52,699 nt of DNA from an uncultured bacterium (GTDB taxonomy: Bacteria > Bacteroidota > Bacteroidia > Bacteroidales > CAIWKO01), in assembly GCA_903862465.1 (NCBI GenBank), contig CAIOYH010000209.1:1-52699 (forward strand), written 5' to 3'. The position numbers and the translations under genes were made by a program. Numbering within the stretch: position 1 is the stretch's first letter; the number at the start of each line of letters is the position of its first letter. Below the pieces are notes generated by a model. The model was given only the letters and a program-made list of their open reading frames with translations. It made no database searches and was not told where the DNA came from. Shown here in pieces: positions 319-7,588 of the stretch.

Positions 319-2754
319 CTAATGCTTTATTTTGTTTTTAATCTTAATCAAAAGGGTTTTCAATGATACTCTTTCATTTTCATATTTATAATACAAATCA
401 GGAAATTTATCGGAAGAGAATACATCTAATTGGTGAATAATAAATTTTATTAAAGATTGATCATTTGTATTTTCTACCCAGTTTATTGTAAAATCTATTT
501 TTTCATGCTTTAGTTCTAGATATAACCTAGCTGCATCAGGATTTGTCAAATAAAAACATGCTTTATCGGCAACGGGGTTTTCAATATATCTTGACAATCC
601 TTCCATAGTAGAAAACCTATACTTTAGTGGTGTTAATTTGTCAGGAGTTCGTAATTCTTTTTCTTTCTTGATATGAAAAGCAATATACTTGTTTGTTCTA
701 TGCGGCCAAGACGTACCCATTTGTTGAAGTTCTTTTTCAGAGAGAATTTCCCAATTTGTTATGCTATAAAGTACTGCTTCTTTTGTACCTGCTTTGCATA
801 TTAATATGTTTTTTGACAAGTAAATCTTTGAGTTAAGATATTTAACAAATGGTACGTGAAAAATATTTTTAGAAGAAATAAAATCTAGGCGTTCATTTTG
901 ATATTCTTTTTGAACGCCAGCGATAGTAACCCATTCTAGCCAACTATTTCGCTGCCTTTGATACTCGGAGTTGTCCATTTCAATAAATTGTTCAAAATGT
1001 TCTTCAGGGAGAGTTTTATTTATTAACTTATTTAGCAAAGCTATTACCAAACCAGATTTGCTTGGAAGAAATGGTAAAGCTCCAATATTAACTTGATCAA
1101 TGCTTTTGTAAAAAGTATTTGATAAAAATTCCTTTTCAGATTTCGGATAGGGATATAATATAATACCACCTAAATTTTTAATGGCACTCCTATAAGACGA
1201 TTCAGCAGGAACAGTATGCAAAATAGCATCTCGATAACGATGAAGTTGGCCAATTGCATCTTGAGGCACATTGTACTTTTGACTTTCAATTGTATCAGAA
1301 TATTCGTTTTTTTCTTCAAATCTGTATTTTGCATCGAAAACATACCAAAAAGGTTTCAAATAGCCATTTTTAGTAAACTTTATTGCAATATCTGGGATTT
1401 GTCTATAGGTAAATATTTTCTTTTCATCTCTAACAAATTCTTTATTGAAATAAATACTTAACTGCTCCCCAATTTCTTCATTTGAAAAACGAATTTCAGA
1501 TGGATTTCCTTTCTGAAGTTCAACTTTAATTCTAGATGATTTTATTTTTACAACATCATTGTAAGTAATTTTCAAATTCATTTCCTCTCTAGCAATATTA
1601 ACAATAGCCAAAAAGCACCAATACTCATATAATGTTGAAATATCCTTTTGTTCGATTTTGAAAATTTCATTATCAGCCAATTCAAGACCTCTAGTTAGTA
1701 AAAGGTAAATATGCATAAAGTCTCTATAACCAGCACCCCTAGTTAATGAAGTGGAAAATTGATTTCGCTTTTCAAATTCCCCTACTTCGTTAAATGGAGG
1801 CTCATGCATTACGGTCTGTAAGCTGCTTTGATAAAGTTTGATTCTTTCAATAAGCGGCGAAAAATCAGATTTTTTTGAAATTAACTCGATCCTTTTTCTA
1901 TATTGCCTAAGTTGCTCAATTATTTTTTTAACTGCCCAAACAATAAATCTATTTTCATATGTATCGTAGGTCACATATTTTTTACTTGATAATGCGTGAG
2001 AATAAAATTTATCATGAGTTATTTTTATTCCAATTCCATTACAATTTGAATATCGTGAATTTTTTTTAAACCAATCAATATTTTTTCGTGTATTGTCTTT
2101 GATTTTTTCAACATATTGAACCTTCTCATACGTCCGAATCTCGTGTTTGGGTTGTCTTTTTATAACGCCAAGATTAATAATTATTTGATTGAATAATGAA
2201 TCTATGATACTCCACCATTCATTTTCAGTTGAAACTCCTGATAATCTTGCCTTGCTCCTTCGAAACGTATCTTTTAAGGTATCAAAAGCCAAATTTTGAA
2301 TGATGGAAGTAATTTCTGTCATCATGGATTTATAATCTGATTTATAATCCATTTTTTGTGGAAACACCTCTGTACAAAGCTCAAATATTAATTTATTTGA
2401 AAAATCTCTTATCTCTATAGTAGTCTCTCCTACTTGGTTTTCAAAGGAAAATTGACCCGTTAATAAATGATAGTTACTTCGTTCTTTTGATTTTTTTAAA
2501 GTGCGGTTATTAATTCTAATTTCAAATGGAGGATGGAATCCAATTACATTTTCAATTATATAAGAATATTGAACTGTTTGCCATTCATAAAAATGAAATG
2601 GGATATTATTAGATTGTGGACTATCTAACCCATTAGTACTAAATTTGATTTTTTCAATATCAGGGGCTTGATAAAAACTTCTATTTGAATCAGCAATATC
2701 CAATTCAAGGGAACCCCAACCATCCTTTTCATATTTATATGATGTAAAACTCAC
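319..2754 (-). CDS. DUF2357 / PD-(D/E)XK nuclease, McrC-like effector
   Basis: About 811 residues and the last gene of the defence operon. The N-terminal part resembles DUF2357 proteins (F-P-x-K-x-D-Y-K-x-D-Y around residues 135-145). A nuclease core of the PD-(D/E)XK type follows, with PDIAI near residue 450 and FDAKYRF near 473, which would supply the D...DxK metal-binding residues. In the family such proteins are the nuclease partner of an McrB-type GTPase in modification-dependent restriction. No ATG is available at the start. A GTG at 2754 overlaps the upstream stop as GTGA, and a TTG lies at 2760. I prefer GTG because the 4-base overlap suggests translational coupling. Substrate specificity cannot be read from this protein; it is more likely set by the upstream EVE domain. 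Confidence 0.8.
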   Translation of the reverse strand: MSFTSYKYEKDGWGSLELDIADSNRSFYQAPDIEKIKFSTNGLDSPQSNNIPFHFYEWQTVQYSYIIENVIGFHPPFEIRINNRTLKKSKERSNYHLLTGQFSFENQVGETTIEIRDFSNKLIFELCTEVFPQKMDYKSDYKSMMTEITSIIQNLAFDTLKDTFRRSKARLSGVSTENEWWSIIDSLFNQIIINLGVIKRQPKHEIRTYEKVQYVEKIKDNTRKNIDWFKKNSRYSNCNGIGIKITHDKFYSHALSSKKYVTYDTYENRFIVWAVKKIIEQLRQYRKRIELISKKSDFSPLIERIKLYQSSLQTVMHEPPFNEVGEFEKRNQFSTSLTRGAGYRDFMHIYLLLTRGLELADNEIFKIEQKDISTLYEYWCFLAIVNIAREEMNLKITYNDVVKIKSSRIKVELQKGNPSEIRFSNEEIGEQLSIYFNKEFVRDEKKIFTYRQIPDIAIKFTKNGYLKPFWYVFDAKYRFEEKNEYSDTIESQKYNVPQDAIGQLHRYRDAILHTVPAESSYRSAIKNLGGIILYPYPKSEKEFLSNTFYKSIDQVNIGALPFLPSKSGLVIALLNKLINKTLPEEHFEQFIEMDNSEYQRQRNSWLEWVTIAGVQKEYQNERLDFISSKNIFHVPFVKYLNSKIYLSKNILICKAGTKEAVLYSITNWEILSEKELQQMGTSWPHRTNKYIAFHIKKEKELRTPDKLTPLKYRFSTMEGLSRYIENPVADKACFYLTNPDAARLYLELKHEKIDFTINWVENTNDQSLIKFIIHQLDVFSSDKFPDLYYKYENERVSLKTLLIKIKNKIKH

Positions 2755-4298
2755 AACCAAAAAGATGTAAAACGGTCGTCATCAAATCTCTTTAACATAA
2801 AAAGAATTTTCTTGGAAGCCTTTTGATATTTTAATGAATTGATTGGAAATTGGTTTTCAATTTCAGAAAATTCAATATCTGTCCTTACTTTTTCTTTCTC
2901 ACCCTTCTCAATTAAGTACAAAAGTTTTATCAGAACCTTTTGTATTCTTTCTGAACTACCATGAATACGTGGTAATATTTTTTGTACAATTTGAAAGTCT
3001 AATGCATCTTTTTCACTAATTAATCCAAAATTATTATTGATAATAAGGTAAAATGCTATTTCATCTCTAACGCGATAAGCAAAATGCAAATCGGCTTCTT
3101 GGAGAATGATATTTATGTCAATTAGCATGCCCATTTCAGATGTAATTTTATCTCTATCATGTCGTGAAATTTCTGAAGATGTCAAATAAATTGTTTCAAA
3201 AAGTGAATTAGTAATATCGACTAATTTATTTACTTTGAAATCTGTTGTTTCAATCCAATTTAAATCTACTTCGTTCATTTCAATAGAATTGGCTCTGTCC
3301 AAAACTTTTCTTGAAAATGAATGAGTAGTTTCATCCATATTTACAGTTCCTATAAGATAAAGGTTTTCAGGTAGTCTTATATCATTAAAATCTTTTGAAT
3401 TAGTTGCACCGACCAACAATTCTTGACGCAATATTTTATCCGTAACAATCTCATTATTTTCATTTCGTGTTCGTGTTTCAATAACACTTAAATAGTCACT
3501 AAAGTAATGTTCTACCCTTGCTAGATTCATCTCATCCAAAATAAAGAAATAAGGTTTTTCGGGGTTTTTATTTGCTACCTTTATTAAAAGGGTTAAATCC
3601 TTTGGAGAAAATATATTATTTAAAGAAGTATACCCTAATAATTCGCTTCCATCAGTCCAATCAGGTCTTACAGGGACTTGTTTAATTTGTTCTTCCATAT
3701 TAAAACCAATCGCTTCTGCAAACTTTCTTGGTAGTTGAGTTTTTCCTGTACCAGAAATACCCGCAAGAATTACAAATGGTTTTGCTCTCAGTGCTAAATA
3801 AAAATTAGCTACTTCTTCATAACTATATCGAAACCCTAAAGATGTAATATAACCGTAAACATGGTCAATTAACTCTTTTGGCGTTAATTCTTTAATTACA
3901 GGTTTGTTTTTTTTCATAGTAAAAAAACTATTAAAATATTGCTTTAATTCACTTCCTTTTCCTTGAAATATATCCAAATCTTTTTTTCCTTGGATAGCAA
4001 GACCAAAATTGGGAGCATAGATTCTTTGAAGTTCTTTTGTTATATCAGTTTTTTCACATAACTCCCAATCGATTTTAAATGCCGACTTATATTTTTCTGC
4101 ATCAGCCCATGGTTTTTCAAAGGTTACTTCTTTTAAAACACCTCTACCTCCTAGTTTATAAATCTTATTCTCTCTAATAATGAGGTAAACTAAATCCCCA
4201 ATATTATAACCACCTGTTGGAAAACCCGCAACATTATGCTTTATACACAAATTGTAATTTTCGATATTTTGAGAGCAATTTAAAAAAAATGTTGCCAT
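2751..4298 (-). CDS. EVE-domain McrB-like AAA+ GTPase
   Basis: A 515-residue protein. Residues about 1-110 look like an EVE/PUA-like domain (GDLVYLIIREN, then a K-L-G-G-R-G-V turn), a fold known to read modified bases. The AAA+ part has a Walker A motif GISGTGKT near residue 180, a Walker B motif FFILDEMN near 251, and GTVNMDETT near 316, the N-x-D signature of McrB-type GTPases. The expected role is to recognise modified foreign DNA and move along it with GTP hydrolysis, activating the nuclease encoded next. It starts 1 base after the MazG-like gene ends and overlaps the nuclease gene by 4 bases. The EVE call is by eye; the GTPase call is firm. Confidence 0.85.
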   Translation of the reverse strand: MATFFLNCSQNIENYNLCIKHNVAGFPTGGYNIGDLVYLIIRENKIYKLGGRGVLKEVTFEKPWADAEKYKSAFKIDWELCEKTDITKELQRIYAPNFGLAIQGKKDLDIFQGKGSELKQYFNSFFTMKKNKPVIKELTPKELIDHVYGYITSLGFRYSYEEVANFYLALRAKPFVILAGISGTGKTQLPRKFAEAIGFNMEEQIKQVPVRPDWTDGSELLGYTSLNNIFSPKDLTLLIKVANKNPEKPYFFILDEMNLARVEHYFSDYLSVIETRTRNENNEIVTDKILRQELLVGATNSKDFNDIRLPENLYLIGTVNMDETTHSFSRKVLDRANSIEMNEVDLNWIETTDFKVNKLVDITNSLFETIYLTSSEISRHDRDKITSEMGMLIDINIILQEADLHFAYRVRDEIAFYLIINNNFGLISEKDALDFQIVQKILPRIHGSSERIQKVLIKLLYLIEKGEKEKVRTDIEFSEIENQFPINSLKYQKASKKILFMLKRFDDDRFTSFWL

Positions 4299-4299
4299 A

Positions 4300-4629
4300 T
4301 TATAATTGATTATATTTACAAGCTATCCCTTTTGCTTTATCAATTGGATATTTTTCTTGGTTCTTTATAATTTTATCCAAAACAATTTCTTCAACGTTCA
4401 AATGATACTTTTCAGCCATCAAAAATGCGAAAGCAAAGACATCAGCTAATTCTTCTTTTACTTTATCTAAATCAGCATCCTCAGCATTTTTCCAAAGGAA
4501 CAATTCTAATAATTCATTTGGATCAATGCTCAATGCAATTGCTAAATCTTTATGATTATGAAATTGCTCCCAATCGCGTTCATTTCTAAACTCAATTAAT
4601 CTATCAATAATAAGTTTTATTTCACTCAT
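4300..4629 (-). CDS. MazG-like nucleotide pyrophosphohydrolase
   Basis: A 109-residue all-helical protein of the MazG/RS21-C6 (dCTPase-like) group. Visible motifs are FHNHKDLAIALS, then ELLELFLWK, then EELADVFAF, which supply the Mg-binding acidic residues expected to hydrolyse dNTPs to dNMP and pyrophosphate. The usual E in the first motif (S-I-E-x-x-E) is replaced by D in SIDPNELLE. Its start overlaps the upstream gene by 8 bases and it ends 1 base before the McrB-like gene. Placement inside a restriction operon suggests a nucleotide-pool or modified-nucleotide role, which is inference. A housekeeping role is less likely given the coupling. Confidence 0.85.
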   Translation of the reverse strand: MSEIKLIIDRLIEFRNERDWEQFHNHKDLAIALSIDPNELLELFLWKNAEDADLDKVKEELADVFAFAFLMAEKYHLNVEEIVLDKIIKNQEKYPIDKAKGIACKYNQL

Positions 4630-4975
4630 TTCTCAAACATGAATTTTTCCAAAATTCTTTGTGATCAGGATAGTCTTCATTACAAATTATAAGATGTAAT
4701 GCATCTACTCGATATGATGATAAACCAATTTTTATTGGATGGTAAACGTAACAGCCTCCAGAAAACGAATCTGGATTCAAATAATCCCAAAAAAGTCTTT
4801 CCCCTGTTAGTGGTAAGGCGACATCACTATATCCTGCTTCATCAAGAAATTTTCTAACTGCAGCCAAAAGTTCATCATCAGTGCCTCCATAAAAATCAAC
4901 TTGATATATCCATCCATCACTGCGACCATTTTTGTACATACCTCCTTCGGGAGGAAAATTATGTCTAATCATCAT
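4622..4975 (-). CDS. Unknown 117-residue protein of the defence operon
   Basis: I do not recognise this family. It begins with two consecutive ATG codons at 4975 and 4972, directly after the stop of the TPR gene with no gap, and its 3' end overlaps the MazG-like gene by 8 bases. The protein is soluble, acidic and rich in aromatic residues (GWIYQVDFYGG, LFWDYLNPDSF), with no signal peptide or membrane segment. It looks like one small alpha/beta domain. It could be an immunity, adaptor or cofactor protein, but the sequence alone does not decide. Confidence 0.7.
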   Translation of the reverse strand: MMIRHNFPPEGGMYKNGRSDGWIYQVDFYGGTDDELLAAVRKFLDEAGYSDVALPLTGERLFWDYLNPDSFSGGCYVYHPIKIGLSSYRVDALHLIICNEDYPDHKEFWKNSCLRNE

Positions 4976-6944
4976 TTATTTTTTTAATGTTAAAGCTATT
5001 TCATATTCATGGTTGTAAGGTAATTGAATGTCTGCAAGCATCTCTGGTATGGCAAGAACAAAGCTTACATAATAATAAGCAAGGATATGATATCCTGAAA
5101 ATACTTTTTCAGGTATTAAATTCAATTTATAATCTTTTTTATCAGGTCTGTAGCCTTGGGTGCCTTGCATGGCTATTTCAATCGCAATTCTTTTTATTTC
5201 TTCTAAAGGCATGCCGTCAAAATATTGCAAAGCATCCACCATAAACATTACTACCGCCATATTGGTTGAAATCTGCTCTTGAGATTTTTGAAACTTTTGC
5301 ATTTCTCTCTCTTTTATTGGATCTTTTTCGTCAATCCCTAATGGGTCTTTTTCAAAGTTCTCAATGAATGTTTCGAAATTATCTCGCTTCCGATATGCAT
5401 TTTCGCTTTCCATTTCGAAAAGCTTGTTAAGCTTTAAATCCTCTGCCCAATGAACCACCAATTCATATTCCTCGCCAGGCTCTCTATCTTCTTTATACTG
5501 TAAATATTCATCATAAAAAGTTTGCGCTTGTTTCAATTCAAAAGGCATTGCATTAAAATCTTTAATGAAATTAATGCCAAATAATTCTTTGAATTGCAAA
5601 GCATTTACAATGTTATAGATTTTGCTCTTGGAGAGAATATCCGGCGGGGAAAGTTCAACAGCTTTTTTATCGGTTACTGCCGTTAATCCTTCTTTATTCA
5701 AATTATATAATGAAATCAATTGATAAGCCCTTAGTTCAGGGAATTCATTGTAAAGAAAATCTTCAATAAACAGGTCAATAGGTGTATTAAAAATCTGTCG
5801 ATTCATTCCTTCAAAAATTCCTGTACAATAGTCTGCAATAGCTCTGTCGGATATTCCCAATTTGCTAAATTTCTTTATTGTTGTTTCAAGTCCTTTAATG
5901 AAATTTGTTTTATGATCGTTGTTTGAAATAAATAGTTGGTTTACATCTTGTTTTCTTGCCTCTATAACAAAATCCAAATGGACCAATTCATGCATTATCA
6001 AATGCTGATAGGCTGGGTACTTAGCATTATATCTTATTGTATGATTTTGTCTTTTATAATTCTCAGCAAACTCAAACTTAGCAGCAGTTGGAATAGTTGA
6101 ATCTTCGATAATATCTATTTTCTTTCCACCATCAATTTGCAGTTTATTTAAATAATCTAAAAATACCTTTCTTCCTTTATTTTCCTCAATAATTCTTCTT
6201 GCAATTTCAGAGGCTTGTTTGAGTGAATTTTGAAATAAGATATCCTTTGTATTACTACACTTTAAAGCTTGTATGGAACTATATAATGCAGATTGCAAAT
6301 CATTCTCCATTTCGGCTATCATTGCCAAGGCAAAATGCGTATTAGGGTATTTATTATTTATTTTTATTGCTTCCCAAAAATACTTTTTAGCTTCTTCGAT
6401 TTTTTCTTGTTGGAGAAGATTTGCCCCAATATTATTTATAGCGATATTGTCGTTTGGATTGGCAACAAGCGCCTGATCGTAATACTTCAAAGCTACGGTA
6501 ATATTATTTTTGAACTTAGCAAAAATATTACCCATCATAACTAAAGCATATCCATTTTTAGGATCCCATCGCAGTGCATCAATCAAACAATTGATGGCTT
6601 CGTCCTGATCTCCTTCATCGGAAAGAATTTGTCCCATTATTCGATGATATTCCGAATTGGTAGGGTTTTGCTTGATAAGTCCGTTGAGAATTGGTTTTGC
6701 ATCAGCATATTTTCCCTTTTCACAAAGAGCTACCGTTTTTCGATAATCGGCTTCTTGAGAAAGTATGGCAGGAGTGTTTATTTCGATTGTTACCCAATCA
6801 TTTGAAATACTAACTTTTGGCTTGAAAGGTCCATAGGTGTAGTAACTTTCTAATACGCTTATAATTAGGTCATTACCACCCCCCCCCCGCAAATTCAGGG
6901 AAAATGGTGAATAAGAAGTCGTCTATTTTATGTATAATCTTCAT
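4976..6944 (-). CDS. TPR protein with HExxH metallopeptidase motif, frameshifted at a poly-G tract
   Basis: About 655 residues when restored. TPR units (G-x-I-x-x-x-x-G-D-x-x-x-A, P-N-x-x-x-x-x) run over roughly the first 230 residues. A likely zinc-protease motif HELVHLDF lies near residue 300, followed by a long helical C-terminus with no family I know. The only good start is the ATG at 6944, 16 bases after the XRE gene, reading MKIIHKIDDFLFTIFPEF. That frame meets ten consecutive G (minus strand, 6888-6879) and stops at once as TGG-TAA. With nine G it runs straight into the long frame. The alternative TTG at 6892 has no visible ribosome site. An XRE regulator followed by an HExxH protein recalls XRE/ImmA-type pairs. 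Confidence 0.75.
6879..6888 (-). repeat. G10 homopolymer in the TPR-protease gene
   Basis: Ten G on the coding strand near codon 19. Nine (or twelve) keep the ATG at 6944 in frame with the 638-residue body; ten give a stop two codons later. It is either a phase-variable contingency tract or a homopolymer length error. Confidence 0.8.
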
Positions 6945-6960
6945 TTACTAGTTGTTTGTT

Positions 6961-7182
6961 TTATACCTCTTTGATAAGTGTTTCAATTTCGACTTGCAAA
7001 GCTTTAGCAATTTTTTCTATGCTAATAAGCGTAATATTTTTTTCTGCACGCTCAATCATGCCGATATACGTGCGATGTACTCCGGCTCTGTCGGCAAGTT
7101 CTTCTTGAGATATATCTAATTGATTTCTAAATTTACGGACGTTATTCCCGAAAATTATTAATATTTTTTTATCTTCCATCAT
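6961..7182 (-). CDS. XRE-family regulator, controller-protein-like
   Basis: A 73-residue protein that is almost entirely a helix-turn-helix domain: RKFRNQLDISQEELADRAG, then HRTYIGMIERAEKN, then IEKIAKALQVEIETLI. Size and motif match the small C-protein-like repressors of restriction-modification loci. Start codons lie at 7182 and 7179. It heads the operon and probably controls itself, because inverted operator copies lie just before its start codon and upstream of its promoter. Confidence 0.9.
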   Translation of the reverse strand: MMEDKKILIIFGNNVRKFRNQLDISQEELADRAGVHRTYIGMIERAEKNITLISIEKIAKALQVEIETLIKEV

Positions 7183-7183
7183 T

Positions 7184-7195
7184 GCTAACTATAGT
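7184..7195. promoter_or_regulatory. Putative operator, proximal copy
   Basis: GCTAACTATAGT is an exact inverted copy of 7235-7246. Each contains the perfect palindrome ACTATAGT. This copy is 2 bases from the XRE start codon, over the ribosome-binding region, so binding there would block expression. Confidence 0.65.
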
Positions 7196-7200
7196 GGGCA

Positions 7201-7231
7201 CAAAATTAGTTCTAGTATGTCTTTCTCGCAA
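7201..7231 (-). promoter_or_regulatory. Promoter of the defence operon
   Basis: On the minus strand TAATTTTG (7208-7201) matches the Bacteroidota -7 consensus TAnnTTTG exactly, with TTG (7231-7229) 20 bases upstream as the -33 element. It lies between the two operator copies. Confidence 0.65.
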
Positions 7232-7234
7232 CAT

Positions 7235-7246
7235 ACTATAGTTAGC
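7235..7246. promoter_or_regulatory. Putative operator, distal copy
   Basis: ACTATAGTTAGC is the exact reverse complement of 7184-7195 and lies just upstream of the -33 element. Paired sites around a promoter suit cooperative binding by an XRE dimer. Confidence 0.6.
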
Positions 7247-7588
7247 ATTTAATAACATCCGTTATTGAGGAATTTGCTGATATTGTTTTATAGAAAAGAA
7301 GAGGAATTGCTAGGCGATGTGAAGTGACTGAAAAGAAGGCTGTTTGCCCCCGCGCAAGGGATTGGAACGGAAATCCCACAGCGCCGTTATTCAGGCGCGA
7401 GGAATTGGAGAGAAAAGCCCGACCCCCGTTTTTCAGGGGGATGCGCCCAAAGAAAGAACCAAGATCCAAATTCCAAGCTCCAAATACCAAGGATTGCCCC
7501 TACGAACCCCGACATTTCATGTACGGGACAGGTTACGAATGGACAAATTACGAATTACGAAAATATTACGGATTTACGAATTTGCGAA
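7247..7588. other. Gene-free stretch made of dispersed repeat words
   Basis: No credible gene. It contains GC-rich inverted pieces (7340-7445), a run of AATTCCAAGCTCCAAATACC-type words (7465-7493), the second copy of the palindromic 22-bp repeat (7508-7529), and ACGAATTACGAA-type runs (7534-7596). Open frames at 7242-7490, 7324-7617 and 7344-7652 are repeat-derived. Confidence 0.6.
7508..7529. repeat. Palindromic dispersed repeat, copy 2
   Basis: Identical over 22 bases and in the same orientation as 195-216, so the pair directly flanks the defence operon. Confidence 0.7.

Follow-up and report, generated by a model that had tools for sequence, protein, structure and literature searches.

We describe a poly-G tract near the 5' end of a TPR-HExxH gene that is very probably a translational contingency locus, an on/off switch operated by slipped-strand mispairing. 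It lies in a 52,699-nucleotide stretch of DNA (the window) from an uncultured bacterium of the Bacteroidales. Of the 65 distinct homologues with a readable start, the window included, 27 have a run of 7-13 G at this same codon, in lengths that leave 15 of these copies in frame and 12 out of frame. At contingency loci, replication slippage alters the repeat length by one. As assembled, the window copy appears to be in the OFF state, with the count of ten G coming from one assembly. The relevant features of the window are the following.

319 to 2760, minus strand: McrC-like nuclease with DUF2357 (4e-45) and PDDEXK_7 (2e-34)
2751 to 4298, minus strand: McrB-like AAA motor (AAA_5, 5e-6; NCBIfam McrB, 5e-9, below the curated cut-off)
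4300 to 4629, minus strand: MazG-like nucleotide pyrophosphohydrolase (PF12643), a frequent partner of the TPR gene
4622 to 4975, minus strand: 117-aa protein with no family, beginning directly after the stop of the TPR gene
4976 to 6944, minus strand: putative phase-variable gene with TPR repeats (model residues 40-236) and a C-terminal domain with an invariant HELVH and E377
6873 to 6944, minus strand: 5' end of the TPR-HExxH gene with its ATG, the MKIIHKIDDFLFTIFPEF leader (conserved in alignment A1), the G tract and the stop in the present frame (23-aa product)
6879 to 6888, minus strand: G10 tract, predicted OFF length (in frame at nine G), with 7-13 G at the same position in 26 other homologues
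6961 to 7182, minus strand: XRE/C-protein-like regulator (HTH_3), 16 bases upstream of the TPR-HExxH gene
7183 to 7195 and 7235 to 7247: perfect 13-nt inverted repeat (TGCTAACTATAGT / ACTATAGTTAGCA) adjoining the XRE start

The ATG of the TPR-HExxH gene (6944-6942, minus strand) is found 16 bases downstream of the XRE stop at 6961, where the sequence-only reading had put it. That reading had also described 19 codons, ten G and then TGG TAA. The ten G and the stop are there, but the tract (6888-6879) is preceded by 18 complete codons plus GC (56 nt), the 19th codon, GCG, already using the first G. Past the leader the frame continues as GCG GGG GGG GGG TGG TAA and gives a 23-aa peptide. The 638-aa ORF at 4976-6892 is offset from this frame by a single base, and with one G fewer the nine-G form fuses the ATG leader exactly to the 638-codon frame, as had been claimed. 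The predicted product of 655 aa is close in size to intact homologues of 657-658 aa. We rejected a TTG at 6892 as the start, which would lose the MxIIHKIDDFLFxxFP leader upstream of it, a segment with many columns more than 90% conserved in the homologue alignment. The earlier reading had the gene either off as given or dependent on this TTG, which it called unsupported.

The length of the tract is, on its own, unusual against chance but only suggestive: shuffling the window gives an expectation of 0.12 for a G9 word, and two matches were reached in 3 of 100 shuffles. It is the position of the tract and its conservation across homologues that place it far beyond chance. Eight further G/C runs of nine or more can be found in the same genome (loci L007-L017), mostly intergenic or at ORF edges, with two or three within ORFs.

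For the survey of homologues we searched 84,980 bacterial and archaeal genomes, which resulted in 49 loci, and later searches enlarged this set. The search seeds were placed in the gene body, so that homologues were not selected for the presence of a tract. The 5' end was readable in 64 copies of the first set, of which 25 have at least eight G at the site; the addition of L103 brought the number of distinct homologues to 65, with L104 left out of the count as an apparent duplicate of L063. The tract site directly follows the leader MxIIHKIDDFLFTIFPEL, and the lengths seen among homologues are 7, 8, 9, 10, 11 and 13. The longest tract (L024, 5994-6010) has one interruption (GGGAGGGGGGGGGGGGG) and is in frame. 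A comparison of homologues had been proposed as a check, with the lack of a tract as the refuting outcome, and it found the tract in 26 others from different genera and assemblies. The deep branches of the TPR-HExxH family are without it. In the same-genus genomes searched, the TPR-HExxH gene is absent. Among viral contigs, a single-protein search gave no match and a profile search gave one tract-less relative, at a contig end. We also observed a TPR-HExxH homologue with 44% identity in a record named Microcystis phage Mwe-JY31 (PP438423.1; L096, 8935-11292), followed by a 109-aa gene in a pair resembling the bacterial one; either a phage carries the defence module or the contig has been misassigned.

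The lengths of the tract vary by numbers that are not multiples of three. Nine of the 12 out-of-frame copies are at +1 (mostly G10) and three at -1 (G8), and reading in such copies ends within a few codons, very often at a TAA, TAG or TGA touching the tract. Copies with no tract behave differently: 37 of 38 are in frame and the sole exception is a degenerate plasmid copy (Fisher P = 9e-5 for 26 tract against 38 tract-less copies in the first 64). Seen from the other side, the tract is present in 12 of the 13 homologues with an out-of-frame 5' end. This distribution bears on two other explanations. The first is recoding, in which slippage of RNA polymerase or the ribosome would yield protein from an out-of-frame tract, making it an expression device and not a genetic switch. 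Polymerases and ribosomes alike tend to slip on long homopolymers, and a conserved tract flanked by both frames would suit such a device. Recoding nevertheless predicts a fixed phase, whereas in-frame, +1 and -1 copies are all found; it is unneeded in the majority of tract copies (15 of 27), and neither the length range of 7 to 13 nor a second subgroup with its tract at a different codon fits it well. We therefore consider recoding improbable. The second is an error of sequencing or assembly, by which the window would truly have nine G and an intact gene. The earlier reading had held this to be as likely as switching. Homopolymers are indeed prone to miscounting, and the exact count of ten in the window assembly could be affected. 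But out-of-frame tracts were found in twelve assemblies, including that of the isolate Pedobacter puniceum (L034), and several of the out-of-frame contigs are named NODE or k141, pointing to short-read assemblers. Moreover, an error in one assembly cannot produce a conserved tract of G7-G13 at one codon. For the window tract an error thus seems unlikely, with quite a small chance of being the whole explanation, and of the earlier judgement it is the plausibility of switching that stands, given the ON and OFF lengths at the same codon in the 26 other homologues.

At the loop where the tract lies, tract-less relatives have unrelated residues such as KKGDEQ, REGSND and TNSDDN, so that the protein does not need the tract glycines; for this reason we rejected a protein-level requirement for GGG. 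In the rest of these genes GGG makes up 14% of glycine codons (77/555), and the 476,590 bases of these loci contain just four other G/C runs of at least eight. The tract is retained for the DNA and not for the protein. Two of the four off-site runs belong to the same gene at a second site, nucleotide 117; the small subgroup concerned (L047, G8 at 470-477; L067, G9 at 6057-6065) has no tract at the first site. That one gene should have two alternative tract sites is hard to explain without selection for slippage. In L067 there is an additional in-frame stop further down the TPR-HExxH gene.

The bodies of the out-of-frame genes are relevant to a third explanation, namely that the frameshift is the one-way inactivation of a decaying gene. 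The frame in the window is broken, and some tract-less relatives have decayed (L095, a Marivirga plasmid, and L090). The window body is, however, open across 638 codons, and we found no body stops in the out-of-frame copies examined. Pairs of ON and OFF copies have a dN/dS of 0.06-0.20 where dS can be estimated, so the OFF alleles are otherwise intact and under purifying selection. Decay would also not account for the tract being there in nearly all copies broken at the 5' end. We regard a pseudogene as very improbable. On a maximum-likelihood tree built without the first residues of the protein, the tract was gained or lost at least 8 times and the ON/OFF state switched at least 10 times, counts that are approximate as many inner branches are weakly supported. 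The nearest pair in opposite phase (L024 ON, L027 OFF) shares 87% DNA identity, and tract and tract-less copies come equally near (L026 and L035, 87%). Together these changes and pairs suggest that switching is fast relative to the divergence of species.

The protein that would be switched combines TPR repeats at residues 40-236 with a helical C-terminal domain (pLDDT 88.7 for the model of the whole protein, 88.8 for the C-terminal domain alone). The residues H301, E302 and H305 of the HELVH motif (P0001 numbering) and the downstream acidic residue E377 do not vary among 33 homologues, the most distant of them at 40% identity, and E377 may be the third ligand. P0001 matches only TPR families in Pfam and has no methyltransferase domain; the M78 family, which would indicate an XRE-ImmA/IrrE pair, has no Pfam match to the peptidase domain. 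No family covering the C-terminal domain was found in PADLOC, Pfam or NCBIfam, and a sequence search of solved structures gave no credible match. Foldseek with the whole model returned TPR proteins only, and with the C-terminal domain nothing significant, an absence which does not show a new fold. Among the weak structural matches of this domain are some zincins, such as MATCAP, minigluzincins and oligoendopeptidase F (Z 2.6-4.0). Our best guess is that the HExxH domain is a putative metallopeptidase. Judging from the architecture, the TPR-HExxH protein would most likely be a shared sensor or activator of the operon.

In the window the gene order is XRE regulator, TPR-HExxH protein, 117-aa protein, MazG-like protein, McrB-like AAA motor and DUF2357-PDDEXK nuclease, the last two adjoining each other. 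From the TPR gene onward the operon is tightly packed, with overlaps or gaps of about one base. None of the six genes at 319-7182 encodes a methyltransferase; the contig starts 318 bases past the last gene. Its family content suggests that the operon serves in phage defence. The inverted repeat at 7183-7247 is probably an autoregulatory operator, and a similar repeat is found ahead of the XRE gene in L025. The MazG-like protein of L045, at 202 aa, is extended at its N-terminus by roughly the size of the window's 117-aa protein.

In other genomes a MazG-like gene usually comes next after the TPR gene, and the modules beyond it differ. Schlafen-group-3 helicases form the largest cluster, and McrB/McrC-like pairs are found as well, the McrB-like part in seven loci outside the window. 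Type I restriction-modification (R-M) genes follow in L025 and L060, an HKD-Snf2 helicase in L049, a DISARM/IIG-like methyltransferase in L057, BrxC of BREX in L036, and a methylase with a ResIII helicase in L042. The window has an XRE-like gene upstream of the TPR gene, and so do a minority of the other loci. In L023 (8236-10446) and related loci, the Schlafen-group-3 helicase immediately after the TPR-MazG pair has a C-terminal S24 (LexA-like) peptidase domain. A tract was seen in at least the McrBC, Schlafen-helicase and Type I R-M types of locus, which indicates that it travels with the TPR gene and not with one defence system. This leads us to propose, tentatively, that the TPR-HExxH gene, in most cases together with the MazG-like gene, might be a portable, phase-variable head module gating a downstream nuclease or helicase (McrBC, Schlafen helicase or Type I R-M).

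Under the proposed mechanism, slipped-strand mispairing at replication would add or drop one G. From the sequence, in-frame lengths are predicted to give the full TPR-HExxH protein of 655-660 aa and other lengths a stop soon after the tract. With translation ending 1.9 kb short of the next start, and the operon being tightly packed, the OFF state would be expected to lower the expression of the downstream MazG-like and McrB/McrC genes as well, via lost coupling and polarity. The TPRs of the full protein would provide the platform for binding, and its HExxH domain would act as a metallopeptidase. In a population, some cells would then have the defence operon armed and others disarmed, and such a mixture could balance the risk of phage attack against what self-damage or a block on DNA uptake would cost.

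In function, the closest known case is pglX of the Pgl system (BREX type 2) in Streptomyces coelicolor, likewise a phage-defence gene with G-tract length switching. There the length variation switches phage resistance (PMC4365076, citing Sumby and Smith 2003), with reported rates of 10^-2 to 10^-3 from Pgl+ to Pgl- and 10^-3 to 10^-4 in reverse (PMC4365076). Pgl is one system of an actinobacterium with a methyltransferase-type pglX; the tract described here is not within a PglX methyltransferase gene but in a TPR-HExxH gene common to several unrelated Bacteroidota defence operons. In phase-variable Type I and III R-M systems and phasevarions, slippage in simple repeats toggles an R-M component (PMC12707154). 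What is switched is typically a methyltransferase or specificity gene, whereas the window operon has no methyltransferase among its six genes at 319-7182 and would switch an accessory head gene. With McrBC and LlaJI-type systems (PMC11090510, PMC1459862) the operon shares the McrB-like AAA motor and the DUF2357-PDDEXK McrC-like nuclease downstream. The main text of the McrBC census mentions TPR once, MazG is absent from it and phase variation is not described (PMC11090510); we did not find a tract-switched TPR-HExxH head gene in that text. In the open-access literature we found phase variation by simple sequence repeats for other systems, and no such case for the TPR-HExxH family or for a poly-G tract in McrBC.

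The known cases of phase-variable phage defence are a few systems centred on methyltransferases. Our results add a gene family with a conserved slippery tract, present in many genera and ahead of several unrelated defence systems. Surveys of single genomes may score such systems as intact or broken from what is a coin-toss tract length. A direct test is possible in Pedobacter puniceum, a sequenced isolate whose assembly has the gene out of frame. The findings suggest that immune bet-hedging is a built-in property of a shared accessory module, as opposed to a peculiarity of individual R-M systems. If the TPR-HExxH gene is indeed a portable head module, one tract would set the on/off ratio of a population for unrelated immune systems across the Bacteroidota.
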